A stretch of 48,000 nt of DNA from a virus, in the IMG/VR virus record IMGVR_UViG_3300035703_000139, positions 1 through 48,000 of that record, one strand, 5' to 3'. Of this stretch, positions 24,291 to 36,644 are shown in pieces. Under the pieces are notes generated by a model, which worked only from the letters and a program-made list of their open reading frames with translations, searched no databases and was not told the origin of the DNA. Made by a program: the position numbers and the translations under genes. Every line of letters starts with the position of its first letter. The first letter of the stretch is position 1.

Positions 24291-24468
24291 GCAACCAGAG
24301 TCTCGCGTTAACGAAGCCGGCAACTACACCAAGCCCACGCTTCGCAAACGCCTATTCGAAAGCATCAAGGCTGGCGGCAAAGGCGGCAAGCCGGGGCTCT
24401 GGTCCGCGAGGAAGGCGGGTATGCTAGCCAAAGAATATAAGGCTCGTGGCGGCGGTTATCGTGACTAA
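24283..24468 (+). CDS. Small basic phage protein (KGGKxGxWSARKA type)
   Basis: A 61-aa protein with a GTG start overlapping the previous stop. RKRLFESIKAGGKGGKPGLW and SARKAGMLAKEYKARGGGY form a motif very frequent in phage and virus small basic proteins. The function is unproven; DNA binding is likely from charge. The end overlaps the endonuclease VII-like gene. Confidence 0.75.
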   Translation: MAKQPESRVNEAGNYTKPTLRKRLFESIKAGGKGGKPGLWSARKAGMLAKEYKARGGGYRD

Positions 24469-24943
24469 TGTAGAAAAGCGTTGCACTAGGTGTGACACTG
24501 TTAAACCACTTTCCGAGTTTAGGGCTAGGGGCGGCACTCAAAAACATTTGCTAAAATCGTGGTGCAAAACTTGCCATTTTGCTGAACACAAAAACTGGTG
24601 CATAAAAAATCCTGATCGGATCAAAGAATATCGTGGGCGCGATCCGTGGTCACTTATTAAACGGTGCAGTAGACACGGTATTACACCAGAGCAATTTGCG
24701 GAAGCATATGAAAATCAAGATGGCAAATGTTTAATCTGTTGTGTGATAATTTCACAAATGGGTAGCGCGATAGACCATAACCACAATACCGGAGAATTTC
24801 GCGGAATACTTTGCAAGACATGCAACCGCGCGCTAGGTTTGTTTCGTGACAGTCCCGCCATTTTGCGTAGAGCAACAGACTATCTAGAGACAAGAGGACA
24901 TTACGGGGATGGCTCTGAAGGCTCCGCAGAAATCACTAGTTAA
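24461..24943 (+). CDS. Endonuclease VII-type HNH nuclease
   Basis: A 160-aa protein from GTG 24461, inside the end of the previous gene; a GTG at 24446 is also possible. The N-terminal zinc ribbon is CTRC (8-11) plus CKTC (35-38). The nuclease core is CLIC (90-93), AIDHNHNTGEFRGILC (103-118), CNRALGLFRDSP and ATDYL, the recombination endonuclease VII pattern with zinc Cys pairs and catalytic DHNH (105-108). It may resolve branched DNA, or be a homing nuclease of this fold. The gene is clearly AT-rich inside a row of GC-rich small basic genes, so it looks inserted. Confidence 0.85.
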   Translation: MTNVEKRCTRCDTVKPLSEFRARGGTQKHLLKSWCKTCHFAEHKNWCIKNPDRIKEYRGRDPWSLIKRCSRHGITPEQFAEAYENQDGKCLICCVIISQMGSAIDHNHNTGEFRGILCKTCNRALGLFRDSPAILRRATDYLETRGHYGDGSEGSAEITS

Positions 24944-26355: not shown

Positions 26356-26597
26356 GCCACCTTCACCTTGAAGCGGACTGGCGGTGCATATGCCGTATAT
26401 TCAGGAACTTCAAACTCTACTAGATACTGTTCAAAGGCTCCCTCTAAGTTGTAGTTATCGTCTAGGTGTCCTTGAATTTCATCCATGGTAGCATGGCCTG
26501 TGCTGCTGCCCCAGCCAGTCACATCGTAGTCACCTTCTTGATTGACTCGAACAAGAACTTGCAGCGTAATCATTTTGGCAGGCTTAGGCGTTGCCAT
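26352..26597 (-). CDS. Small protein, unknown
   Basis: An 81-aa protein with alternating strands (MITLQVLVRVNQEGDYDVTG; EQYLVEFEVPEYTAY; VRFKVKV) and a short acidic helix. The compact alpha/beta pattern has no recognised motif. It overlaps the MazZ-like gene by 14 bases and the phosphatase by four, so it is firmly inside the operon. Confidence 0.6.
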   Translation of the reverse strand: MATPKPAKMITLQVLVRVNQEGDYDVTGWGSSTGHATMDEIQGHLDDNYNLEGAFEQYLVEFEVPEYTAYAPPVRFKVKVA

Positions 26598-26970
26598 TTG
26601 CGATTCCTTTGGTGTGTTGCCTTATGAAGGCATTAAGCATCCCCACTGTGGGCCGGTCATCCTGTAGCATACCTTGCGCTTCAGCATCAAGTAAAATCAG
26701 CAGGCACGCAGCCGCGTGCGCCAGATGCGGCAGGTGCGTTTCTTCATCCAAGTCCTGCCCGTCCCAATACGTCAGCAGATGCCGCAGCGCCGCATTAACA
26801 TAGACGCTTGCCGTGATCTTGTCGTCGCGCCAATTCATGGGGCCATACTTCTCGGCCCCGCACGCCATCACCTGCCCAACGCGAAACATCCCGACCGGCG
26901 GCACATTCGTCAGGTTCGGTTTCGCCACACCATATTGCGTCTTCGGATTCCCGTCCGGAAATTTATTCAT
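26584..26970 (-). CDS. dATP/dGTP diphosphohydrolase-like (MazZ/DUF5664 family)
   Basis: A 128-aa all-helical protein of the DUF5664 / dATP-dGTP diphosphohydrolase family: QYGVAKPNLTNVPPVGMFRV (12-31), AEKYGPMNWR (39-48), then AALRHLLTYWDGQDLDEETH (60-79) and LPHLAHAAACLLILLDAE. These MazG-like enzymes remove pyrophosphate from dATP/dGTP. In phages with 2-aminoadenine DNA, MazZ feeds dGMP to PurZ, but relatives also occur in ordinary phages. No PurZ or DatZ lies in this window. It is co-transcribed with dUTPase and overlaps both neighbours by a few bases. Confidence 0.75.
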   Translation of the reverse strand: MNKFPDGNPKTQYGVAKPNLTNVPPVGMFRVGQVMACGAEKYGPMNWRDDKITASVYVNAALRHLLTYWDGQDLDEETHLPHLAHAAACLLILLDAEAQGMLQDDRPTVGMLNAFIRQHTKGIANGNA

Positions 26971-27184
26971 TGTCTAGGCCCAGCCTCTTTGTTTCTGCCA
27001 TCAAGAACAGCAGACTAACTTCATTTGCGGTCGGCTCTGGCAAATGTATTGTCAGGCTATCTTCGGTGGGTGCATAGTCAATAGCGCCGCGCATATATCC
27101 AATTCGATACGCATATCGAACAGCATACATTGCTGCCGTAATCTGCTCACCCGCACTAAACATCTCTTTGGGTTCTTCGCTCAT
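26963..27184 (-). CDS. Small acidic helical protein, unknown
   Basis: A 73-aa protein from ATG 27184, which overlaps the upstream stop (TCATGA) and has AAGGGA eight bases ahead. An upstream GTG would lie inside the previous gene. SAGEQITAAMYAVRYAYRIG is a helix, and PTANEVSLLFLMAETKRLG another. No family is recognised. Placed between a Cys-rich protein and the MazZ-like enzyme. Confidence 0.6.
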   Translation of the reverse strand: MSEEPKEMFSAGEQITAAMYAVRYAYRIGYMRGAIDYAPTEDSLTIHLPEPTANEVSLLFLMAETKRLGLDNE

Positions 27185-27459
27185 GAACAGAATTCCCTTG
27201 TCATCTTCCAGCAGTTGCACTTGTCACACATAATGTTAGGGTCTTTCGACCAGCAACCCAGACTATCTGTCTTGTAGGCTGCCGGCTCTGGCCCAAACTC
27301 TACAGGCTTCGACACCTTCAGCATTCGCTGCGCGTCGGCCCAGCCCTTCCACAAATTGCTGGCCGTAACGTAGCCATGCCAGAATCCAGCATCATAGGCC
27401 GCTGCCTCTTCGATAGTATAGGACTTATGCTCCTTCTTGTCAGACCCCGGTGCTGCCAA
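27181..27459 (-). CDS. Small Cys-rich protein, unknown
   Basis: A 92-aa protein with a likely TTG start at 27459: GGAGG lies six bases upstream and no in-frame ATG is available outside the dUTPase gene, which it overlaps by 20 bases. It begins MAAPGSDKKEHKSYTIEEAA, has an aromatic helix (FWHGYVTASNLWKGWADAQR) and ends with MCDKCNCWKMTREFC, a possible metal-binding cluster. Function unknown. Confidence 0.6.
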   Translation of the reverse strand: MAAPGSDKKEHKSYTIEEAAAYDAGFWHGYVTASNLWKGWADAQRMLKVSKPVEFGPEPAAYKTDSLGCWSKDPNIMCDKCNCWKMTREFCS

Positions 27460-27907
27460 GTCCAGCCTCCCCGCGAATCGTCTTGGTTGCAAAGGCGCTG
27501 ACTTCTTCAACTTGCAGTTGAGGCACGGGCATAACCAGCAGTTGCGCGATGCGGTTGCCCTTCGGATACACAAGCGGACTCATGTTGGGCCACGCATGAT
27601 CGTCGGGCAGATACCCGAGAATCACTTTCAGTTCGCCTTGATAGTCTTCGTCGATGACGCCCGGCGCATTCAGTACGAACACGCGATCCTTGGCTGCCAG
27701 CCCGCTCCGTGAACACACTAGACCGACATGCCCAGGCGGCAACTGCACAGCCACGCCAGTCTTCGCTACAGTGACAGGCCGGTAGTGCTTCAGCACTACG
27801 TCCTCGACCGCATACAGATCGAAGCAGGCCGCGCCGTCCGTTGCCCTCTTAGGCAACACCGCTTCCGGGTCCAACTTCTTGAACTGTACTACAGCACCGC
27901 ATGACAT
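27440..27907 (-). CDS. dut: dUTP diphosphatase
   Basis: A 155-aa trimeric-type dUTPase with all five motifs: ATDGAACFDLYA (22-33), CSRSGLA (65-71), NAPGVIDEDYQGEL (80-93, catalytic Asp and uracil-binding loop), GNRIAQL (117-123) and RGEAGLGSTG (145-154; usually RGxGGFGSTG, so the stacking Phe is Leu here). It turns dUTP into dUMP and pyrophosphate, keeping uracil out of DNA and feeding thymidylate synthesis. ThyX at the window edge and the deaminase-like gene complete that route. Confidence 0.9.
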   Translation of the reverse strand: MSCGAVVQFKKLDPEAVLPKRATDGAACFDLYAVEDVVLKHYRPVTVAKTGVAVQLPPGHVGLVCSRSGLAAKDRVFVLNAPGVIDEDYQGELKVILGYLPDDHAWPNMSPLVYPKGNRIAQLLVMPVPQLQVEEVSAFATKTIRGEAGLGSTGV

Positions 27908-28338
27908 TCTTTGTAGGCTCCTATCTTGAGTTCCGTTTCAAGTTCATACAGCGAGACAGTCTTTTTGTGGCAGCCCCGCCTAGGATTCTTATAGACCTGC
28001 AAGTAACTTAGTTGCGCGCCCTGGTGAATTGCTTGCACGACTGGCCCATAAAATTTTAGTAACTTTTCACGGGCCGCGCGCACCCAAGTCAACTTGCACT
28101 CCACAATACATAGCCTGTTGTCTGGCAGCCATACAAGCGCATCGGGCTGGCAGATACCAGACGCCCCGCGCCCCGCGTTATAGTATAACCAAGGCCCGGC
28201 TTCTACCTTTTCGTACAGGCTTTTCAGCCTAGTGACAACTGCTTTCTCGAAGTTCAGGCCGGCTTGCTGCGCGGACGTGCGCTCACGCTTTTCGAACTCG
28301 GGAACTTTGTCCGCGTATTGTGCAACAAGCCGGCGCAC
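27889..28338 (-). CDS. PD-(D/E)XK nuclease
   Basis: A 149-aa protein with a GTG start. GICQPDALVWLPDNRLCIVE followed by CKLTW gives the catalytic D66 ... E80-x-K82 of the PD-(D/E)XK fold, with a candidate helix Glu at 31 (GLNFEKAV). Small single-domain phage enzymes of this sort act as Holliday-junction or structure-specific nucleases, or as VRR-type repair nucleases. Position between dUTPase and the polymerase genes fits DNA processing. The specific substrate is not readable. Confidence 0.75.
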   Translation of the reverse strand: MRRLVAQYADKVPEFEKRERTSAQQAGLNFEKAVVTRLKSLYEKVEAGPWLYYNAGRGASGICQPDALVWLPDNRLCIVECKLTWVRAAREKLLKFYGPVVQAIHQGAQLSYLQVYKNPRRGCHKKTVSLYELETELKIGAYKECHAVL

Positions 28339-28340
28339 TG

Positions 28341-28625
28341 TTACAGGTGTCGATTCAGAGACTTGTTCATCATGGCAATCACCAACGCAAAGTCGCTGAC
28401 GTTTAGCCGCGATGTCATCAAATTGAAATCACCGTGGCCTTCAGCGCCAGGCTCCTTAGTCACTACGGCCAGAACAAAGTGCTGCAACTTATCCATGCTG
28501 TCGGCCAGAAAACTAATCGCGTTGGCCGCGCACTCTTCAAGTTCCCGCTGCGCCCCATCATCAACGTCAGGCTTCGGCGGGTCCACAGCAAACGGCTTAG
28601 TGAAACTAACGACGTTATCCGACAC
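28341..28625 (-). CDS. Small protein, unknown
   Basis: A 94-aa protein from GTG 28625, with AAGGAG upstream. The same frame is open further back, but that part overlaps the 67-aa gene. An acidic N-terminus is followed by a helix, AQRELEECAANAISFLADSM, and a motif GHGDFNLMTSRLNVSDFALV near the end. No recognised domain or membrane span. Overlaps the upstream gene by 11 bases. Confidence 0.6.
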   Translation of the reverse strand: MSDNVVSFTKPFAVDPPKPDVDDGAQRELEECAANAISFLADSMDKLQHFVLAVVTKEPGAEGHGDFNLMTSRLNVSDFALVIAMMNKSLNRHL

Positions 28626-28818
28626 AATACTTCTCCTTAGCGTTCTTAACGTCTTGCACAATGTTAGTCCTGATGACCCAAATCTTCGTGCCGTTCGTAG
28701 GGTCGGTACCCTTCTCCAGCCACACATGCACCGAGTGCCCGCGCCTAGACCACCATGTCCTGATGTCTTGCATAAGCCTAAAGTTTGCGGCTCTATCACT
28801 TAGGTAGTCGTGCTTCAC
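28615..28818 (-). CDS. Small basic protein, unknown
   Basis: A 67-aa protein whose GTG start is the codon right after the polymerase stop (TAGGTG), so it is translated by re-initiation. WWSRRGHSVHVWLEKGTDPT and KIWVIRTNIVQDV show an alpha-beta-beta layout like small nucleic-acid-binding proteins. Possibly a polymerase accessory factor, judged only from linkage. Confidence 0.6.
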   Translation of the reverse strand: MKHDYLSDRAANFRLMQDIRTWWSRRGHSVHVWLEKGTDPTNGTKIWVIRTNIVQDVKNAKEKYCVG

Positions 28819-30252
28819 CTAACTTCCCTTCCACTTCTTCAGACCCTTTGGATTTGTTTCGGCGTCGTATTTATCCCACGAGTAGCCCGTCTCCAGGTCG
28901 TACGGGATAGTGATAGTCCGCCGCTTGCCATGAATATCTTCTACCTCAAATGGAATGGTAATGCAATCCAAAATTTCTGGCCACAACTTCTCTGCCATGT
29001 CTTCGCGCACCTGCCCAACAATTCCGTCATGCACATTAAGCATGATCTGCACAGGCGCACCAGGCTGTCCCTCATAGCGATGCCACAGATTGTATATACT
29101 TAGATTGGTCAGCATGCCAACAGTGGATTGTGGGCCATATGCTACCGCCTCGCGCAGCGTCGCGTTGTCCCAGCGCCTACCCCAGAACATACGCCGCACA
29201 CCAAAAGGATTCTCTAACCAACCCTTCTCGGCAATCTGCTTGGCTATGTGCGAATGCCATCTGGCAATGCTAGGAAACTTCTTGTAGTAGATAGCCTGAA
29301 ACTGCTCGGCACTCTCGTGGTCAATGCCAAGGCTCTTGGCCAAAGTAGTTGGCCCTACCATGTAGTTGCACGAGTGTGAGCCGACCTTAGCGAATTGCCT
29401 ATAAGACTTGCCACGCTTGTATTCACGCTCGGCAAGATCGCGCTTAGGCTCGAAGCCAAACACCATGGAAGCCACCATAGTGTGCGCGTCTCCACCTTCA
29501 CACGCCTTGATGTAGTTCTCGTCACCAGTCAGGTATGACACAAGCCGCGCCTCGGCGCCCTGCTGGTCAGCCTGAAACATAATGTAACCGGGGTCCGGCA
29601 CAAACGCCCTGCGTGAAAGCGGATTAACATTCTGGCCGTTGCCGCCCAGCCGAAGCGGATGCTCCGACGACGACAACCTAAACGTGGACGTGCCCGCAAT
29701 GTTGAATGCCGTATGAAATCTATTATCTGGGGACAACGTCTTCGTAAGGAACTCGATCTGCTTCTCCAGTTCACGCAGACGCAGAATCAGATTTGCAAAC
29801 ACGGCGCCGCGCGGATAGTCCTTCGCAATACGCTCCAAGACTTCACGATCCGCCGCAACCTTGACTTCGCCCTTCTTGCTTTTGGTCTGCTCTGGAATAC
29901 CCAAGAACTGGTAGAACAGAACTTGCAACTGCGTGAACGACGCAGAATTGATAATGGTGCCGAACAGCCGCTCACAGATTGTGTCATAAGTGTGGCGCAC
30001 CTTGGCAACCCGCGCCTGCAACCCGCTGACAATCTCGTCACGCTTCTGCATGTCGATGGCCACACCGCGCCGCATCATCGTCATGATCGGCCCAAGCATC
30101 AGTTCCGAATAGCGATACGTTGGCTTGGCCCAATCCGGTATCAGCCCGCCATCGAACAACTCCTTGAGCGCCATCGTCTGCAAGTTGTCAGTGGAGTTAT
30201 AAATGATATCCTGATTTTCAGGCGTTGGCGTAAAGTCCGTTATGATCTTCAT
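28819..30252 (-). CDS. Family A DNA polymerase, polymerase half of a split enzyme
   Basis: A 477-aa protein from ATG 30252 (GGAGAAGGCAGC upstream). Polymerase motifs: A, FQADQQGAEARLVSYL with D229; B, YRQFAKVGSHSCNYMVGP with K289; C, LNVHDGIVGQV with D409, where the usual HDE reads HDG. It has thumb and palm/finger regions but no complete exonuclease domain. The N-terminus keeps IIYNSTDNLQTMALKEL at about 16-32, which matches the exonuclease III motif (YNxxD) of uncut phage Pol A proteins. Exo motifs I and II lie on the separate protein at 30700-31650. The functional polymerase is therefore probably a two-chain complex. Confidence 0.85.
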   Translation of the reverse strand: MKIITDFTPTPENQDIIYNSTDNLQTMALKELFDGGLIPDWAKPTYRYSELMLGPIMTMMRRGVAIDMQKRDEIVSGLQARVAKVRHTYDTICERLFGTIINSASFTQLQVLFYQFLGIPEQTKSKKGEVKVAADREVLERIAKDYPRGAVFANLILRLRELEKQIEFLTKTLSPDNRFHTAFNIAGTSTFRLSSSEHPLRLGGNGQNVNPLSRRAFVPDPGYIMFQADQQGAEARLVSYLTGDENYIKACEGGDAHTMVASMVFGFEPKRDLAEREYKRGKSYRQFAKVGSHSCNYMVGPTTLAKSLGIDHESAEQFQAIYYKKFPSIARWHSHIAKQIAEKGWLENPFGVRRMFWGRRWDNATLREAVAYGPQSTVGMLTNLSIYNLWHRYEGQPGAPVQIMLNVHDGIVGQVREDMAEKLWPEILDCITIPFEVEDIHGKRRTITIPYDLETGYSWDKYDAETNPKGLKKWKGS

Positions 30253-30398
30253 GCTGCCTTCTCCGCAACATAGGATATTGCTGCAAACGGCACGCATAGC
30301 AGCAACCACCACAACGAATGTGGCATCAAACCAACAATAATTCCGATGCCAAGAATATCTATACAGTTGAAACGCCTACGACTAAAGAACCTAAGCAT
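30249..30398 (-). CDS. 49-aa two-helix membrane microprotein
   Basis: A short frame: ATG 30398 with AAGGA upstream, stop TGA overlapping the polymerase start (ATGA). Basic MLRFFSRRRFN precedes a hydrophobic stretch, CIDILGIGIIVGLM, and a second, SLWWLLLCVPFAAISYV, then a charged end. Two membrane spans joined by a short turn, with a basic N-terminus, resemble small phage membrane proteins, including some holins. Its place between the two halves of the DNA polymerase is odd. Confidence 0.6.
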   Translation of the reverse strand: MLRFFSRRRFNCIDILGIGIIVGLMPHSLWWLLLCVPFAAISYVAEKAA

Positions 30399-30402
30399 CT
30401 GC

Positions 30403-30699
30403 TTATTCCTTTCCAAGCATTTCGTTTCGCAGCCTAGACAAGATGTGCAAGTTCAGCGGCGGGCCTTCGTAGTTCTGTATGAATTCACGGACGCGCGAAG
30501 GCTGTATGTCAGCGGCCAAACAGACCGCCTCGAAATCCTGCGCGGTCACGCCAGCCTCCGCGAATATCCAGTCCCGCGCCCGCTTTCTGTCGGCCTGCAC
30601 CTGTAATGCCGGCGCCTCCGCAGTCGCATCAATAAGTGACTGAATGATCACGGAACTCCACAAACGCCGCATCCTTGCTTCATCGTCTATCTCAGGCAA
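30403..30699 (-). CDS. Small helical protein inside the split polymerase locus
   Basis: A 98-aa protein, probable TTG start at 30699 with GGTGGGAG about ten bases upstream; ATG 30672 is the alternative. It is helical and charged: RMRRLWSSVIIQSLIDATAE, KRARDWIFAEAGVTAQDF, AADIQPSRVREFIQNYEG. Similar small proteins with an Arg/Trp helix and 'DF..VC..A...P..VR' occur in alphaproteobacterial phages and prophages. DNA-binding is possible. It lies between the exonuclease and polymerase halves. Confidence 0.65.
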   Translation of the reverse strand: MPEIDDEARMRRLWSSVIIQSLIDATAEAPALQVQADRKRARDWIFAEAGVTAQDFEAVCLAADIQPSRVREFIQNYEGPPLNLHILSRLRNEMLGKE

Positions 30700-31650
30700 T
30701 CATATTGCTCCCACCTTGTTGAAGTCCTTGAGCGCCTTAGTTCGAAGATGCTTCCACGCCCGCGTTGGAATGTGCATCGAGGCCAGGAAGCCAAGCGACT
30801 TTTCCATCTCTGGTTGCCAGGCATGATGCCGAAGCATCGTATCGAAGATGTGTCCTCGCGGGCGTATACCGTATTTGTCAAGGTAAGTCAAGTCGAAAGC
30901 CGCATTATGGAAGCCCCACGAAAGACTTGTGTTGACTGCCATCTTATGTAGCCACACGAAGATAGCCAGTTCGTCTTGCTCAGACCACGCTGACTTGTGA
31001 TCCCGCGTCTCTAGTTGCACATACAAGCAGACCTTCGACGTAGGTGCCAGCCCGAACTCCGTAATGCGGCACGCCTTATTAGTCTCCACGTCGAACACAA
31101 TCTCATCACGAATGTGCTGCGCCTGAAAGTCATACAAGTCCTGCACGCACTCGGGCACATAGATAGCGCGCTCGGCATCCTCATATCGCTGGCACGCCTT
31201 ACGCATAGCAGACAGAACGACCGGCCGCTCCGACCAATTCAGCCGGGCATAAATGTGCGGCGCATAAGTCGGCACCACCTGCAACCCCTCGACGAATGGC
31301 GAGTCAATATGCGTGCCCCTGTAAGTGTCGATCTTGGTCTCGCCTGTCAGGCAGAACATAGCGTGCTGCCCCATCGTCAACACAATGTCGTAACCTTTTA
31401 GTGCGGCCCACAACTTCTGCCGGTCATCTTCTGCCAACTGCTTCAGTGGACCATACGGCTTATTGCTCACAAACAGCGTACCCCAATCCCTGAAGTGCGC
31501 TCGATGCGCCGTCAGTATCTTGGCCGGCTTGAAGCCCGCTGTCTTCAACAACTCCTGCGTCGTATCATATTCCCACTTCGACAACGGATTGCCGTCCATC
31601 GCATCCACCGACGGACAATCCACCACCAGCGCCGCTTTCAGTTCAGCCAT
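30700..31650 (-). CDS. UDG-like domain fused to 3'-5' exonuclease (N-terminal half of split DNA polymerase)
   Basis: A 316-aa protein. Residues 1 to about 155 look like the uracil-DNA glycosylase superfamily: NPLSKWEYDTTQELLKTAGF (21-40) and VVPTYAPHIYARL (125-137), a form of the UDG H-P loop. Residues 180-316 are a DnaQ/Pol A exonuclease: Exo I FDVET (186-190), Exo II WGFHNAAFD (245-253) and HIFDTMLRHH (267-276). The chain stops before the Exo III YxxxD, which is found instead at the start of the polymerase protein. UDG-exo-pol fusions are known in phages, so this looks like the front half of one. A good ribosome site (GGAGGAACAGG) precedes it. Confidence 0.8.
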   Translation of the reverse strand: MAELKAALVVDCPSVDAMDGNPLSKWEYDTTQELLKTAGFKPAKILTAHRAHFRDWGTLFVSNKPYGPLKQLAEDDRQKLWAALKGYDIVLTMGQHAMFCLTGETKIDTYRGTHIDSPFVEGLQVVPTYAPHIYARLNWSERPVVLSAMRKACQRYEDAERAIYVPECVQDLYDFQAQHIRDEIVFDVETNKACRITEFGLAPTSKVCLYVQLETRDHKSAWSEQDELAIFVWLHKMAVNTSLSWGFHNAAFDLTYLDKYGIRPRGHIFDTMLRHHAWQPEMEKSLGFLASMHIPTRAWKHLRTKALKDFNKVGAI

Positions 31651-31662
31651 CCTGTTCCTCCA

Positions 31663-31839
31663 TCACTTCGTTTCATGACACTTTGGCTTCGTTGTAAACA
31701 CAGCAATGGGCGCGCCGTCTCTGCCCCACCATGCACGGGCAGCGTGCAGAACCTCATCTGTGAGCGGGCGATGACAACCAGGCGCGTGCTTGCAGTCCTG
31801 CCAATAGTCACAGAATGTCATGTCACGAAAGCAAATCAT
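31663..31839 (-). CDS. 58-aa Cys-containing phage microprotein
   Basis: ATG 31839 overlaps the previous stop (ATGA); stop TGA 31663-31665. MICFRDMTFCDYWQDCKHAP then GCHRPLTDEVLHAARAWWGR and PIAVFTTKPKCHE. The Cys pattern plus AR.WWG and PI..F is a familiar small phage protein, probably zinc-binding; function unknown. It is followed by GATGGAGGAAC, the ribosome site for the UDG-exonuclease gene. Confidence 0.7.
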   Translation of the reverse strand: MICFRDMTFCDYWQDCKHAPGCHRPLTDEVLHAARAWWGRDGAPIAVFTTKPKCHETK

Positions 31840-32111
31840 TCATCATCCTTCGGCTTGATGAACTGGCTGGGAAGCACAAGTGCTTCTCCGTAATAACCAA
31901 GCACCATGTTGATGTGTGCCAGATCAGTCAGATAACTAAGCACATCTTCCCAAATATATGCTGATCCTTCGTCAAGCAAGTCTCCCCGATCTTGTAATGT
32001 CTTGATCAGCAATTCACAGATTGTCTCAGCCTGCTCCTTGAGACCAACCTTTGTGATGCTATCGACGAGTTCGCCGGGCAGATACACCACCCCATCTTCT
32101 TCAGTCTGCAT
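31836..32111 (-). CDS. Small acidic protein, unknown
   Basis: A 91-aa protein, helical and acidic: DSITKVGLKEQAETICELLI, EDVLSYLTDLAHINMVLGYY. It overlaps the lysin stop by 11 bases and ends ...KPKDDE. No domain is recognised. Coupled to both neighbours. Confidence 0.6.
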   Translation of the reverse strand: MQTEEDGVVYLPGELVDSITKVGLKEQAETICELLIKTLQDRGDLLDEGSAYIWEDVLSYLTDLAHINMVLGYYGEALVLPSQFIKPKDDE

Positions 32112-32619
32112 AGAACGTATGTCCTCCTATCTCTGCAACTTCGAATAGCCCGCGCCACCACCTGTCTGCTTGCACACGGCGCGCCCTGAAATACAGAACG
32201 CCCGGCTCACGTCCTTGGTTCTGACGCACAGCAATCCTAGCAACTTCGCGCGCCTGCTGCCAAGCGGCATTTTTGCCGACCTTCACATGACGCCTATGGG
32301 TGCAGGCCCAAGCAAACTGGCAGGCACCTTGCAGCCGTTGCTGCACCACAGCGCAGGCCGTATTTGGAAACCGCTCATCACGCACCCTGTTCAGCACCAC
32401 ATGCGCCACTTCCAGTTGCCCCTCGATAGGCTCGCCGCGTGCTTCCCAATACACAGCCTGCGTCAGACAATCCATCTGTCGGGGCGGCAACTCCCGCGCC
32501 TGCACGCCCTGCGATATGGCCGCAAAGATAAGCAGCCACAACCAGACAACAATCGTCAGCAGAAAGAAAAGCATCGCCAAATTCACGGCAACTTCAGTTA
32601 TCTTTTCGAGCAGCCTCAT
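32101..32619 (-). CDS. Membrane-anchored SleB-like cell-wall hydrolase (endolysin)
   Basis: A 172-aa protein. An N-terminal hydrophobic segment at about 9-35 (AMLFFLLTIVVWLWLLIFAA) acts as signal anchor. The catalytic region LTQAVYWEARGEPIEGQLEV (52-71, Glu59) with VVLNRV and ACQFAW (99-104) is the SleB / Hydrolase_2 fold, which cuts the glycan strand of peptidoglycan. A signal-anchored lysin can reach the periplasm by host Sec without a classical holin. ATG 32619 is chosen because GAGAAGGA lies ahead; ATG 32655 is also in frame. No spanin is recognised near it. Confidence 0.8.
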   Translation of the reverse strand: MRLLEKITEVAVNLAMLFFLLTIVVWLWLLIFAAISQGVQARELPPRQMDCLTQAVYWEARGEPIEGQLEVAHVVLNRVRDERFPNTACAVVQQRLQGACQFAWACTHRRHVKVGKNAAWQQAREVARIAVRQNQGREPGVLYFRARRVQADRWWRGLFEVAEIGGHTFYAD

Positions 32620-32719
32620 CTGTTGGTTGTTCCTTCTCAGCATCTGCGAGCGCATCCAGTGCCCGCTTCAAGACCTCATGTTCCGGCGTCGTATGCGTCG
32701 CCTTCGGCTCAATGACCAC
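32594..32719 (-). CDS. Possible 41-aa acidic microprotein
   Basis: GTG 32719 to TGA 32594-32596, overlapping the lysin start by 26 bases. It reads MVIEPKATHTTPEHEVLKRA then LDALADAEKEQPTDEAARKD, a single charged helix. A GGGG precedes the GTG but is part of a hairpin. It lies just downstream of the terminator at 32724-32756. It may be real and couple to the lysin, or be chance. Confidence 0.35.
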   Translation of the reverse strand: MVIEPKATHTTPEHEVLKRALDALADAEKEQPTDEAARKDN

Positions 32720-32723
32720 CCCG

Positions 32724-32756
32724 CAAACAAAACGGGGACCAGTTACCCAGCCCCCG
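32724..32756 (-). terminator. Rho-independent terminator after the ssDNA-binding-like gene
   Basis: On the - strand, CGGGGGCT pairs with GGTCCCCG (8 bp with two wobbles) around a short loop and is followed at once by TTTTGTTT. It lies 28 bases past the stop at 32784. With the promoter at 33287-33315 it makes the gene a separate transcription unit. Confidence 0.75.
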
Positions 32757-32783
32757 CTCCCTTTCGCTAATGGTTGACGAAAC

Positions 32784-33242
32784 TCAGGCCGCCTTCATGC
32801 GGTTGTTGAAGAACCAGTCCTTGGAGTAGTAGCCCTTCACTTCCAGATACGGAATGTCCAGCACCTTGCCGTTACGATCCTCGGTAAGATGCGTCACGTT
32901 GACAACCGCCTCGGCGCCCGGCAGAATGTCCAGGGCATCCGTAAACGTCTGGCCCACAGTCTCGGGTGCGATCCGCGACAGCGTGCGCCGAACAATGTCG
33001 ATGCTCTTTTCGCTGACCCAGATCGTATTGCGGAGACGGCAACGCGCCAGATCGACGCCTTCCATATCTGCATCATCGAGATTTTCCTGCATCGTGAACT
33101 GAAGTTCGATGCCCTCGGTCCCCGAGTTCGCCTTGACCTTCCGCGCCTGCCGCACAGTAACCAGATAATGACCTTCTGGCGCCTGACGGAACGGGGGCTT
33201 GTCGGACTCGGTGTTCTCGATGACGCTATCAAACAGAGACAT
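32784..33242 (-). CDS. ssDNA-binding-like protein (DUF669-like)
   Basis: A 152-aa protein. FRQAPEGHYLVTVRQARKVK then GTEGIELQFTMQE, a middle with TIWVSEKSIDIVRRTLSRIA, and AEAVVNVTHLTEDRNGKVLD. This layout matches phage DUF669-like proteins, which sit beside recombinases and are thought to be ssDNA-binding OB-fold proteins. Here it accompanies a Sak4-like ATPase and a Cas4-like exonuclease. It has its own promoter and terminator, as expected for a protein needed in large amount. GAGGAT precedes the ATG. Confidence 0.65.
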   Translation of the reverse strand: MSLFDSVIENTESDKPPFRQAPEGHYLVTVRQARKVKANSGTEGIELQFTMQENLDDADMEGVDLARCRLRNTIWVSEKSIDIVRRTLSRIAPETVGQTFTDALDILPGAEAVVNVTHLTEDRNGKVLDIPYLEVKGYYSKDWFFNNRMKAA

Positions 33243-33286
33243 TGTGTATCCTCATTAGGGTTGTGTTGGTTACATCCAACGAGCGG

Positions 33287-33315
33287 ACCATACTCCGGGG
33301 CAGCCCGCCCGTCAA
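33287..33315 (-). promoter_or_regulatory. Strong sigma70-type promoter, leftward
   Basis: On the - strand TTGACG (33315-33310), a 17-bp spacer and TATGGT (33292-33287). The start of transcription should be near 33280, giving a leader of about 38 bases with GAGGAT before the ATG at 33242. A weak hairpin with ATTTTT (TTGC-CGGG-GCAA, about 33322-33340) lies just upstream and may stop transcription from the deaminase-like gene. Confidence 0.75.
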
Positions 33316-33345
33316 CAAAAATCTTTGCCCCGGCAATCTCAATTT

Positions 33346-33726
33346 TTAGACAAGCACCAGGCTAACAGGATGCCCTTGCTCATCGAAGCATACCAATCGC
33401 CGCGCGCCTGCCTTCATTAGCAACTCGTGGCAATGCTCGCATGGATACGAACAGCGCCAATCGTTCTTCTTGCCAAGCCTAGCGACCGCAACAGTCTGCC
33501 CCACAGTGCATTCCACCTGCGTTGCACACCGCGACACCAAACTTTCTTCGGCATGTACCAGCCGACTGTTGTAGCCCACCGCCGTAGAACTAGAGGCCCC
33601 GACCCGGAACCGCTGGTCACTTTGTGCTGCCGCAGCCAGCGCCTTATTCAGAAGCACAGTATCCTCTGGTGTCGGCACGAACTTGGGCCTGGCTGCCAGC
33701 GCCTTGTTCAGTTTTGTGAAGACCAC
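33346..33726 (-). CDS. Zinc-dependent deaminase (dCMP/cytidine deaminase-like)
   Basis: A 126-aa protein from GTG 33726 (GAGGA eight bases ahead), overlapping the glutaredoxin stop. RLVHAEESLV places HAE at 58-60 and SYPCEHCHELLMKAG places PCxxC at 95-99, the zinc and proton-shuttle signature of the cytidine deaminase superfamily. With dUTPase and ThyX, a dCMP or cytidine deaminase would supply dUMP. The sequence between the motifs is not typical enough to tell dCMP deaminase from cytidine or other base deaminases. Confidence 0.75.
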   Translation of the reverse strand: MVFTKLNKALAARPKFVPTPEDTVLLNKALAAAAQSDQRFRVGASSSTAVGYNSRLVHAEESLVSRCATQVECTVGQTVAVARLGKKNDWRCSYPCEHCHELLMKAGARRLVCFDEQGHPVSLVLV

Positions 33727-33929
33727 TTGAGCAGATCCTCGTAGCCGCCGATGTGCTGCGTGCCCCGCCATATCTGCGGCACCGTATCTAGGCCCATAGA
33801 CTCAAGCAGCGCCGCCAACGTCGGGTTCACCTCCAGATATTCGTATTCCAACTTGGCATTCTTGAGCAGCGCCTCGGCCTTGACACACCACTTGCATCCT
33901 TCGTGGCGCCCGATGACAGTGAACTTCAT
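33708..33929 (-). CDS. Glutaredoxin
   Basis: A 73-aa protein from ATG 33929. MKFTVIGRHEGCKWCVKAEA has the redox CKWC at 12-15; DTVPQIW (cis-Pro loop, 48-54) and GGYEDLL (61-67) complete the glutaredoxin fold. Phage glutaredoxins reduce ribonucleotide reductase, though none is seen in this window. CKWC differs from the usual CPYC; T4 glutaredoxin is also variable. Overlaps both neighbours by a few bases. Confidence 0.85.
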   Translation of the reverse strand: MKFTVIGRHEGCKWCVKAEALLKNAKLEYEYLEVNPTLAALLESMGLDTVPQIWRGTQHIGGYEDLLKWSSQN

Positions 33930-34120
33930 GCCTTCACTCCCTTCACGAATTCGCGGGCTTCCCATATCAGCGACCCCTCATGAATGTGCCTCTCATAATC
34001 AGGATTGTCCGCCTTCATACGCGACAGCACCACATGCAGCAAGCCCTTGCAAAGCATCCGCGCCCTGTGAATTTCCAGTTCCAGCGCCTCGAACCTATCA
34101 AGCATGTCGTCGTTGCTCAT
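33926..34120 (-). CDS. Small helical protein, unknown
   Basis: A 64-aa charged helical protein: MLDRFEALELEIHRARMLCK, GLLHVVLSRMKADNPDYE, then a short end, WEAREFVKGVKA. Likely a coiled-coil dimer. It overlaps the Sak4-like stop and the glutaredoxin start (ATGA), so it is in a tight operon. Not recognised. Confidence 0.6.
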   Translation of the reverse strand: MSNDDMLDRFEALELEIHRARMLCKGLLHVVLSRMKADNPDYERHIHEGSLIWEAREFVKGVKA

Positions 34121-34917
34121 GCTCCCACCAGCCTGTCAAACATTGATGCCAGATCGAAAGGCTCGGTCGCCTTGATGACTGCCGGATTGCTGGTCCGCAG
34201 CGCCTCGTATGCCGTGGCCGCAGTCCTGAACACCCTGTTGCCCGAACGATCCACTTCAAGGCGCCAGATATCAGAGAAGTATGTGGGCATACGCTTCGAC
34301 ATCTTCTCACCAATGGCGACCGGAATATCCTTTGGCTTGCTGATGAACTTGCCCTGGTCGTCCTTCTCGCCAGTCTGCATGACGTGCGTCAGCATAACAA
34401 CCGAGGCACCAATCTTGTTGCTGGTCAGGTAGTCCAGCACAGCAGCATAGTAGTTGCCGGCGATCCTGTATTGCGTCGGCGCGTGCTTGTTCGCCTCGGG
34501 GTCAGCCTTGGCCGCCATGAAAAGCAACTCACCAAGGAACGTTCCGCTATCAATAACGATCACGTCCTTTGCCGTCAGTTTGCTGGAAGGTCCGAGGTCT
34601 TCGGTCTCAGTCTTCCAATGCTCAAGCATCTGGCAGAACTTACGCATCTCTTTCAGCGCGGCCTGCGCTGCGTCGCCCCGCCCACCGGCAAACAAATTCG
34701 TATCGGTAATCTTAGCAACTGCGAACGTATTTATAAATATGTCCGCATGCCCTGGCTTAAGAAATGATCCTATAACACGGGCGTTAGCATCCAGATCAAA
34801 AAATATAATACGATACCCTGCATTAGCTAGCTGAGAAATAGCGCCAGTCTTTCCGGCGGCGGGTTCGCCATAAATTAAAACGCGCGGGGGCATCTTCTCA
34901 GCATTAAACTTAGCCAT
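34117..34917 (-). CDS. RecA-like ATPase, Sak4-type recombinase
   Basis: A 266-aa protein from ATG 34917 (AGGAG seven bases ahead). Walker A GEPAAGKT at 17-24, Walker B-like DVIVIDS at 118-124, and GASVVMLTHVM in sensor position. It has the size and layout of phage Sak4/AAA_24 single-strand annealing ATPases, which pair ssDNA with the help of an ssDNA-binding protein. The ssDNA-binding-like gene (32784) and the exonuclease (35492) make the expected trio. An HNH gene has come between it and the exonuclease. Confidence 0.8.
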   Translation of the reverse strand: MAKFNAEKMPPRVLIYGEPAAGKTGAISQLANAGYRIIFFDLDANARVIGSFLKPGHADIFINTFAVAKITDTNLFAGGRGDAAQAALKEMRKFCQMLEHWKTETEDLGPSSKLTAKDVIVIDSGTFLGELLFMAAKADPEANKHAPTQYRIAGNYYAAVLDYLTSNKIGASVVMLTHVMQTGEKDDQGKFISKPKDIPVAIGEKMSKRMPTYFSDIWRLEVDRSGNRVFRTAATAYEALRTSNPAVIKATEPFDLASMFDRLVGA

Positions 34918-35423
34918 CACAATTCTCCTTTCATGTATGCTATCAGGCGCTCAAAAAACGCAATGTCATGTGAGCCCTTAATAGCGTTGACTTCTCTTGA
35001 GATTACTCTAACGTTACCTTTTACATATCCTTTTGCGTTGTCGAGCCTATCCAGTGAGTATGACTTCCTAGAGTCAGGCCCTTGCACAGATACTTGCAAG
35101 ACTACCCCAGATACAGGGCACGTTTTTGGCAACTGTATGTCGGCAGCAACCAAGTTAAACTCTAAGCCGTTTTTCTTTGCTCTATGTTTTGCTGCGCGAA
35201 GCATTCTACCTTTTACAAACTTTTCTATTTCATTAGACGTATCTTCTATTTCGCCCCGCTGAATTGCTTGCAATCTAGCGATACGCCTATGATAACTTTT
35301 ACGATTTTCTTCATTAACTTTGTCTGCGCCTATGTTTTTACGGCGCCGAGCAAAGGCTTCTCGACGGTAATCTTTCGTAAGATACCTAGAACCGTCGGCC
35401 CTAAAGTTTCGTTTGGGGTTTGC
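34917..35423 (-). CDS. HNH homing endonuclease
   Basis: A 168-aa protein from GTG 35423 with AAGGAG six bases ahead; an upstream TTG lacks a ribosome site. It has a basic N-terminus and CPVSGVVLQ, SYSLDRLDNAKGYVKGNVRV and ISREVNAIKGS. The xSxDRxDNxxGYxxxNVxxxS block is shared with the nucleases at 46217 and 47277, so the three are one family. AT-rich beside GC-rich neighbours. It lies between the Cas4-like and Sak4-like genes and ends TGATG, passing translation on to the latter. Confidence 0.85.
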   Translation of the reverse strand, partial: ANPKRNFRADGSRYLTKDYRREAFARRRKNIGADKVNEENRKSYHRRIARLQAIQRGEIEDTSNEIEKFVKGRMLRAAKHRAKKNGLEFNLVAADIQLPKTCPVSGVVLQVSVQGPDSRKSYSLDRLDNAKGYVKGNVRVISREVNAIKGSHDIAFFERLIAYMKGEL

Positions 35424-35491
35424 CACCAACAACTCCTTATAGTTGTTTCTGGTAAAATCATAGCAAACCCCGGAACGAAATTCAAGGTAAA

Positions 35492-36397
35492 TCAAAGCGC
35501 ATTGAACATTCCTTTCACAACGTTGTCACTGTCAGACTTCGCTTTGTTGCGGGGATCGTTGGCCCACTGAGGACACCATTGCGCCACCGCGCAATACGAT
35601 TCGCACCTAGTTGCCACGCCCGGCCGATACTGCACCGACGCACCCACCAGCCGTTCCCTAGCAATGTATGCCTCGGCTTCCTCCTTACTGTCAAGCAGGC
35701 GCACGGCAGTCTTACGACCGCGCTGCATGACTGCCCACTTACTGGCCCGCGCCCATATTTCTTCGTCGCTACAGCCCGGCAAATCCTTTTGCTTGTGCAG
35801 GTCCAGCCGGCTCCGAACGAAAGCCTCGGTAACTTCAAGGGGCCAGATAGGAATCTCAAGGCGCACAACTTGGGCCTGCGGATAGTCTTGATCCCGTTCC
35901 GCCTCGCGCTTAGACCAGTCCCGCAGGATCGCAATGATCGCCATGGAATTGATCGTCACGCCCCGCTCACGATGCAGCATCCACCTATAAATATTGGTTT
36001 GCTGCACCCATTCTTCAGGCAACTTGCCACCCGTCAACTTATAGACGGTCGTCACCTTGAAGTCGCACAGTTCTGCCGTGCTGATAGTCACATGGTCGAA
36101 CGTGCCCTTTAGTTTGGTGCCTTCGAACTCCGTAACCAACGTTACTTCGGTCAGCGTATCTTCTGGGTCCGCCGCCCGCTCAATGATAGTATGCACCGCC
36201 TGCCCAAGCAGCGACCAAATCCGATCGCTCACATCTTCCACAATCTGCTCGGCATACTGGTTCCGCAGCCGCACCATGTGGGGCGGGCTAAGAATTTCCG
36301 TGACGCTGAAGTCCGCGCCCGACTTAGTATAGGAATCGTTGCTGACCGCCCGGACCATAGCCTCGGGCAGCCGCATCCTGTTGGTCAGCATAACCAT
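35492..36397 (-). CDS. Cas4/RecB-like PD-(D/E)XK exonuclease
   Basis: A 301-aa protein from ATG 36397 (GGAGG six bases ahead). Nuclease residues: H69 (LLGQAVHTIIE), D101 (KGTFDHVTIS), D112-F-K114 (LCDFKVTTVYK), then QQTNIYRWM. Asp replaces the usual Glu in the ExK. C-terminal C265, C269 and C275 (TRCESYCAVAQWC), perhaps with C209, look like a Cas4/AddB-type iron-sulfur cluster. It probably resects DNA ends for the Sak4-like recombinase. Confidence 0.8.
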   Translation of the reverse strand: MVMLTNRMRLPEAMVRAVSNDSYTKSGADFSVTEILSPPHMVRLRNQYAEQIVEDVSDRIWSLLGQAVHTIIERAADPEDTLTEVTLVTEFEGTKLKGTFDHVTISTAELCDFKVTTVYKLTGGKLPEEWVQQTNIYRWMLHRERGVTINSMAIIAILRDWSKREAERDQDYPQAQVVRLEIPIWPLEVTEAFVRSRLDLHKQKDLPGCSDEEIWARASKWAVMQRGRKTAVRLLDSKEEAEAYIARERLVGASVQYRPGVATRCESYCAVAQWCPQWANDPRNKAKSDSDNVVKGMFNAL

Positions 36398-36398
36398 C

Positions 36399-36644
36399 TC
36401 AGCCCTCCATGTAGGCGCGGTCCCGCACCTCTTCGAGTTCTTCACGCACGCGGGCCTCGGCCTCAGTTTCAGACCGCCACCGCTGCACATAAATAACTGG
36501 ATCGCAATCTTCGTTAATAGCCACGGCAATGCCGGAGTAGCCGAGGCCCTTGTAGAAAGCAAGTTGCTTCATCACATCATTGATGCTGCCACTATCAAAG
36601 ATGTCAGTTATATCAACTGCTTCGTCCAGAATGCGCCGTGTCAT
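36399..36644 (-). CDS. Small acidic protein, unknown
   Basis: An 81-aa protein: MTRRILDEAVDITDIFDSGS, INDVMKQLAFYKGLGYSGIA, then an acidic helix ending the chain. Alpha/beta with a negative C-terminus. Its end carries the ribosome site of the exonuclease gene. No family recognised. Confidence 0.6.
   Translation of the reverse strand: MTRRILDEAVDITDIFDSGSINDVMKQLAFYKGLGYSGIAVAINEDCDPVIYVQRWRSETEAEARVREELEEVRDRAYMEG

Follow-up and report, generated by a model that had tools for sequence, protein, structure and literature searches.

How can a DNA polymerase proofread when the motifs of its exonuclease domain are carried by two different genes? The question is raised by a 48,000-nucleotide stretch of viral DNA (IMG/VR record IMGVR_UViG_3300035703_000139, positions 1 to 48,000), referred to here as the window. 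The initial annotation of this stretch placed motifs Exo I (FDVET) and Exo II (HNAAFD) on a UDG-exonuclease protein that ends before motif III, and proposed that the polymerase protein beyond the next two genes starts with the missing motif, YNSTD.

Gene layout at the locus

All of the described parts lie on the minus strand, in the order exo chain, 98-aa gene, 49-aa microprotein and polymerase chain (Table 1). We found both Exo I and Exo II in the 316-aa exo chain and no Exo III-like motif in it, and the two ORFs described as lying between the chains are indeed there. The claim about the polymerase protein holds for the identity of the motif, which aligns as Exo III (see below), but not for its place. 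The longest polymerase ORF opens with a GTG at 30312 and the conserved start is the ATG at 30252 (MKIITDF...), so that YNSTD begins at residue 18 and not at residue 1. The TTG of the 98-aa gene directly abuts the TGA of the exo chain, and the acidic N-terminus of its product is common to its relatives. The microprotein stop and the polymerase ATG overlap as ATGA. The spacing is as in a tightly coupled operon.

Table 1. Features of the split polymerase locus and other frames in the window.
Feature	Position	Strand	Description
Exo chain, 316 aa	31650-30700	-	UDG-like N-terminal domain (apparently degenerate) and 3'-5' exonuclease; PF01612, E 1.2e-6; phrog_17 549-782
Exo chain motifs			Exo I FDVET (D187, E189); Exo II HNAAFD (N249, D253)
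Exo chain C-terminus			16 aa beyond conserved W299-K300
98-aa gene	30699-30403	-	TTG start; predicted all-helical; candidate accessory subunit
49-aa microprotein	30398-30249	-	Hydrophobic, membrane; stop overlaps polymerase start codon
Polymerase chain, 477 aa from ATG	30252-28819	-	PF00476, E 3.1e-40; phrog_17 805-1239; stop at 28819
Polymerase chain motifs			N-terminal Exo III Y18xxxD22, then complete family A polymerase (D229, R285, K289, H408, D409)
YNSTD (Exo III)	30187-30201	-	On the far side of the gene split from Exo I/II; Y and D in 104/104
Inter-chain gap	30253-30699		Two genes; contents differ between relatives; no gene in L078, L147
Endonuclease VII and two more HNH-like frames (by eye)	24446-24943; 133-651; 34917-35495	+; +; -	
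Replication module	26584-36562	-	dATP/dGTP diphosphohydrolase N-terminal domain, dUTPase, AAA_24 ATPase, PD-(D/E)XK nuclease

Profile searches assign the exo chain to DNA_pol_A_exo1 and the polymerase chain to DNA_pol_A. PHROG 17, a family of fused polymerases, covers the two consecutively, with about 22 profile positions between the two matches. Because they match successive stretches of PHROG 17, both chains are parts of one ancestral protein.

Family 4 UDGs carry two catalytic motifs, GEAPG...GxPFxG and HPS. In the alignment, the window has VDCPSVDAMDGNPLSK and YAPH where a group of relatives (L011-L017) retains GEAWGEKEEE..PFVG-like and YHP sequences. The N-terminal domain of the window (residues 1-165 of the exo chain) lacks the family 4 motifs, its kinship to UDG being read from the alignment, and both motifs are lost in the subclade of the window, itself on a long branch. 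The UDG part looks degenerate in this lineage.

Relatives, origin of the cut and genes in the gap

IMG/VR was scanned with alignments of the exo and polymerase chains, giving a set that includes the window and Caulobacter phage Kuura. The two genes are cut at the same place in all 149 loci that have both on separate frames, of which 104 are distinct. The best-scoring relatives were sampled, and 104 of 104 therefore describes this clade and not all PolA. The split, with the inserted genes reported between Exo II and Exo III, is not an artefact, nor is it a local break or the product of chance. Of the 39 representatives in a joint tree, 21 are split, and a single branch (100/100 support) divides them from the rest; the label split or uncut changes once on the joint tree, once on the exo-only tree and once on the polymerase-only tree. 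On these trees the split has a single origin, and it appears as one old event in a large phage clade. The uncut gene that was to be sought in related phages does exist: neighbouring UDG-exo-pol enzymes, those of Microcystis phage Mel-JY34 and of IMG/VR relatives, are uncut at this site, and the two adjacent genes of the split clade correspond to one intact gene of these relatives.

Kuura is the sole named isolate that we found in the split clade. In its annotation the exo gene appears as 'hypothetical protein' and the polymerase chain as 'DNA polymerase', and the gap holds two unrelated genes. The paper describing Kuura reports the DNA polymerase and leaves the exonuclease unmentioned (PMC9959647). 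A search of a genome collection for a prophage or host context yielded a single match, on a short Phycisphaerae MAG contig, and the IMG/VR record carries no host.

The 98-aa family is present in the gap of 95 of the 104 distinct loci. The nine loci without a relative of it lie outside the subclade of that gene, and it is also absent from the uncut loci. When the 98-aa alignment was used by itself in a separate scan, it found 80 loci; in 77 the exo chain comes before this gene and the polymerase chain after it, and the other 3 are cut by contig ends. The second gap genes vary and include DUF3310, DUF6378, MazG, DUF1937, HNH-type endonucleases and membrane microproteins; the 49-aa microprotein of the window has no clustering relative in the gaps of the other loci. 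Two loci (L147 and L078) have the cut with a gap of 0-27 bases and no gene. Hence the cargo is secondary: the cut does not depend on it, and the gap serves as a place where cargo can dock. The 98-aa protein itself has no match in Pfam or NCBIfam and no convincing one in PHROG; its predicted helical fold has no counterpart in the PDB, and its good BFVD matches are uncharacterised phage proteins only. A remote homologue is gp19 of Pelagibacter phage HTVC023P (L275, 4480-4920, E 5e-5), near the small terminase gene. Since this homologue is outside any polymerase gap, the 98-aa family is not exclusively polymerase-linked.

The split may owe its origin to a mobile gene, such as a homing endonuclease, that inserted between Exo II and Exo III, which is compatible with the two chains working together. 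Some gaps do hold HNH-type endonuclease genes (gap-gene clusters 10 and 14; L016), with an HNH_3 match slightly under the curated cut-off, and there is precedent in the nrdA of Aeromonas phage Aeh1, which was split by a homing endonuclease, a route also discussed for gene 43 (PMC2988022). The gap endonucleases are, however, rare and scattered, the commonest gap gene is instead the 98-aa helical family, which is itself missing from the nine regions outside its subclade, and L078 and L147 have no insert. We regard a mobile-gene origin as conceivable but somewhat doubtful.

The cut and the proofreading site

When the family profile is aligned with E. coli Klenow, the stretches around FDVET and HNAAFD fall on those of Klenow Exo I and Exo II, and the Y-x-x-x-D of the polymerase chain aligns with Klenow YAAED at chain positions 174-178, which we take to be Y497-D501 (+323 offset, standard Klenow numbering). 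In the alignment YNSTD thus occupies the Exo III site and does not lie far from the exonuclease. The conserved WK and the Exo III Tyr of the uncut relatives are separated by 16-23 residues (mostly 17-18). In the split relatives, the exo chain stops 6-17 residues past WK, and the nearest upstream Met of the polymerase is mostly 11-23 residues before the Tyr. The short spacing and these tail lengths indicate that the cut fell in a loop, that no catalytic residue was lost, and that both chains gained short tails.

The catalytic residues are invariant on both sides of the cut. The distinct split relatives all have the Exo I Asp and Glu (103 of 103) and the Exo II Asp (104 of 104), and their Exo III Tyr and Asp are just as constant (104 of 104), while most of the positions neighbouring Exo III in the polymerase N-terminus are variable. 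The polymerase residues D229, R285, K289, H408 and D409 are invariant wherever the sequence is complete. The median pairwise dN/dS, for which many of the pairs are related, is 0.16 for the exo chain and 0.09 for the polymerase chain; by this measure both chains are under purifying selection. Measured against a Klenow-like family A enzyme, the polymerase motifs (A Asp, B Arg/Lys, C His-Asp) are all present, the Exo I, II and III acids are complete only when both chains are counted (D187/E189/D253 with Y18/D22), and the single chain is missing, a stop and a new start lying between Exo II and Exo III in all 104. The sequences strongly imply that the two chains form one site, and we take the invariant residues across the chains, with the purifying selection on both, as the strongest evidence for it.

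Polymerase residue 293, the equivalent of E. coli F762 and T7 Y526, is four positions beyond the O-helix Lys; all complete split relatives and most uncut ones have His there.

The same residues speak to a reading in which the exonuclease is dead or unused for proofreading, the exo chain being kept for some other reason while the polymerase works alone. The loss of conserved UDG residues in this lineage does mean that decay of one domain has occurred. But disuse would let the Exo III Tyr and Asp drift, and instead every catalytic exonuclease residue is invariant on both chains, within a polymerase N-terminus that is otherwise mostly variable, and the exo chain is under purifying selection. A dead exonuclease is therefore very improbable.

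Slightly less credible still is that the frames are joined after transcription or translation (by a group I or II intron, a split intein, a frameshift, hopping or read-through) into an ordinary UDG-exo-pol chain: phage polymerase genes often contain introns, an intron was raised for another split PolA in the OM43 phage paper (PMC10580990), and the exo, 98-aa and polymerase frames share one phase in the window by chance, but no splicing element was found in the gap, where Rfam models gave no intron family match, the gaps hold unrelated genes of differing length down to 27 or 0 bases, the tails of 6-17 and about 11-23 residues are far below the size of a split-intein half, and the 98-aa gene is conserved as a protein in its own right. 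The lack of an Rfam match and the variable gaps make an intron in the gap very unlikely. Stop read-through is very unlikely as well, as it would need to pass five in-frame stops in the window and the exo and 98-aa frames are out of phase in one relative (L005).

Because the frames of the window are in phase, a single read-through chain could be used as a stand-in for the complex. AlphaFold2 was run on this one artificial chain, with the stops as Gly and the untranslated linker included, and with an alignment that contained fused relatives. The exo and polymerase parts are predicted mostly at pLDDT >90 and the linker at about 29-55, much of it <50, with a pTM of 0.81. A long helix (480-503) in the model has Exo III (484-488 of the read-through chain) close to its beginning, and the KII that is conserved at the N-terminus of the polymerase forms a short strand (468-470). 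In a PDB search with the model the top matches were Klenow and phage G20c PolI, in alignments long enough to span both parts. Against Klenow, the whole-fold TM-scores are moderate (0.69-0.73 by target length) and the rmsd is large (9-13 Angstrom). As a single artificial chain predicted from an alignment with fused relatives, the model shows that the pieces fit, which is a separate matter from the binding of separate chains.

Taken together, we propose that the locus encodes an obligate two-chain PolA, to which we give a probability of roughly 0.86; the complex, the shared site and its activity are what we infer. The first chain would comprise the UDG-like domain and the greater part of the DEDD exonuclease fold, including Exo I and Exo II, and the second would open with the Exo III helix (Y18, D22) and run on into the polymerase. 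On binding, the polymerase chain would contribute the helix that ends the exonuclease fold, and with it the third catalytic Asp, so that proofreading would be possible only with the exo chain docked. The split happened a single time, in a surface loop of an ancestral UDG-exo-pol enzyme that was still fused, and was kept in a large phage clade, where small genes exploit the gap as an insertion site. It is possible that the 98-aa protein is a third subunit. That it binds at the split and controls the seating of the Exo III helix, thereby switching proofreading within a three-subunit holoenzyme, is a speculative and unlikely extension.

If the two-chain PolA is real, DNA copying throughout a phage clade relies on a proofreading site built of two proteins. 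It would offer a natural test of DEDD exonuclease completion by helix donation, and of how closely proofreading must be coupled to synthesis. It would also account for 'hypothetical' exo genes adjoining polymerases, and would offer a site for cutting PolA enzymes in the laboratory.

Comparison with known systems

Gene-in-pieces polymerases are already known. The split gene 43 of Aeromonas phage 25 encodes 43A and 43B, which co-purify and have polymerase activity (PMC2988022). Gene 43 of phages 25 and 44RR is likewise a two-piece phage replicative polymerase, but it belongs to family B and is found in few related phages, and its gap is untranslated sequence or a seg endonuclease. The NrdA of Aeromonas phage Aeh1, split by a mobE insertion, is functional without splicing (PMC2988022; PMC3653736); this too is a gene in pieces, but it encodes a ribonucleotide reductase, in one phage, and was interrupted by an endonuclease. 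In the OM43 phages MEP401 and MEP402 the DNAP is split into two ORFs, for which the authors propose an intron (PMC10580990). These polymerases are also of family A, with a small unknown ORF between the pieces and the split common in the group, but the cut is within the polymerase domain (PF00476 on both ORFs) and the exonuclease domain is on one chain. A literature search, with most subscription journals outside it, returned no report of a PolA divided between Exo II and Exo III, nor of such a cut being fixed across a clade.

Breaks at other places were also seen. A second break recurs among the uncut neighbours, just past the polymerase NLQNxxKG motif, with unrelated small ORFs in the gap (L175, which is Vibrio phage VS-ABTNL-3, and L196, L200, L201 and L207), and is possibly of the same kind as the OM43 phage cut. 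A third break, in L173 (MW202554, 2983-3123), follows Exo III and has an NrdR-like zinc-ribbon ORF between the polymerase pieces. In L199 and L205 an HNH-like endonuclease frame interrupts the exo-pol gene near Exo I (exo profile positions 194-205). A near relative of the window (L004) has another HNH-like frame at 2361-2852.

A close comparison is with the fused UDG-exo-pol enzymes of the neighbouring clade (PHROG 17; Mel-JY34 PP438425, MW202489), which share the domains, their order, Exo I-III and the polymerase motifs. They differ in being one continuous chain, in which 16-23 residues lead from WK to the Exo III Tyr, at the point at which the split clade ends one chain and starts the next. 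Separate exonuclease subunits, such as bacterial DnaQ/epsilon and the 'DNA polymerase exonuclease subunit' of PHROG 192, carry a whole exonuclease site; the match of the window to PHROG 192 is not significant (E 0.22). In those systems, too, proofreading has a gene of its own, whereas in the split clade it is the polymerase chain that would complete the site.
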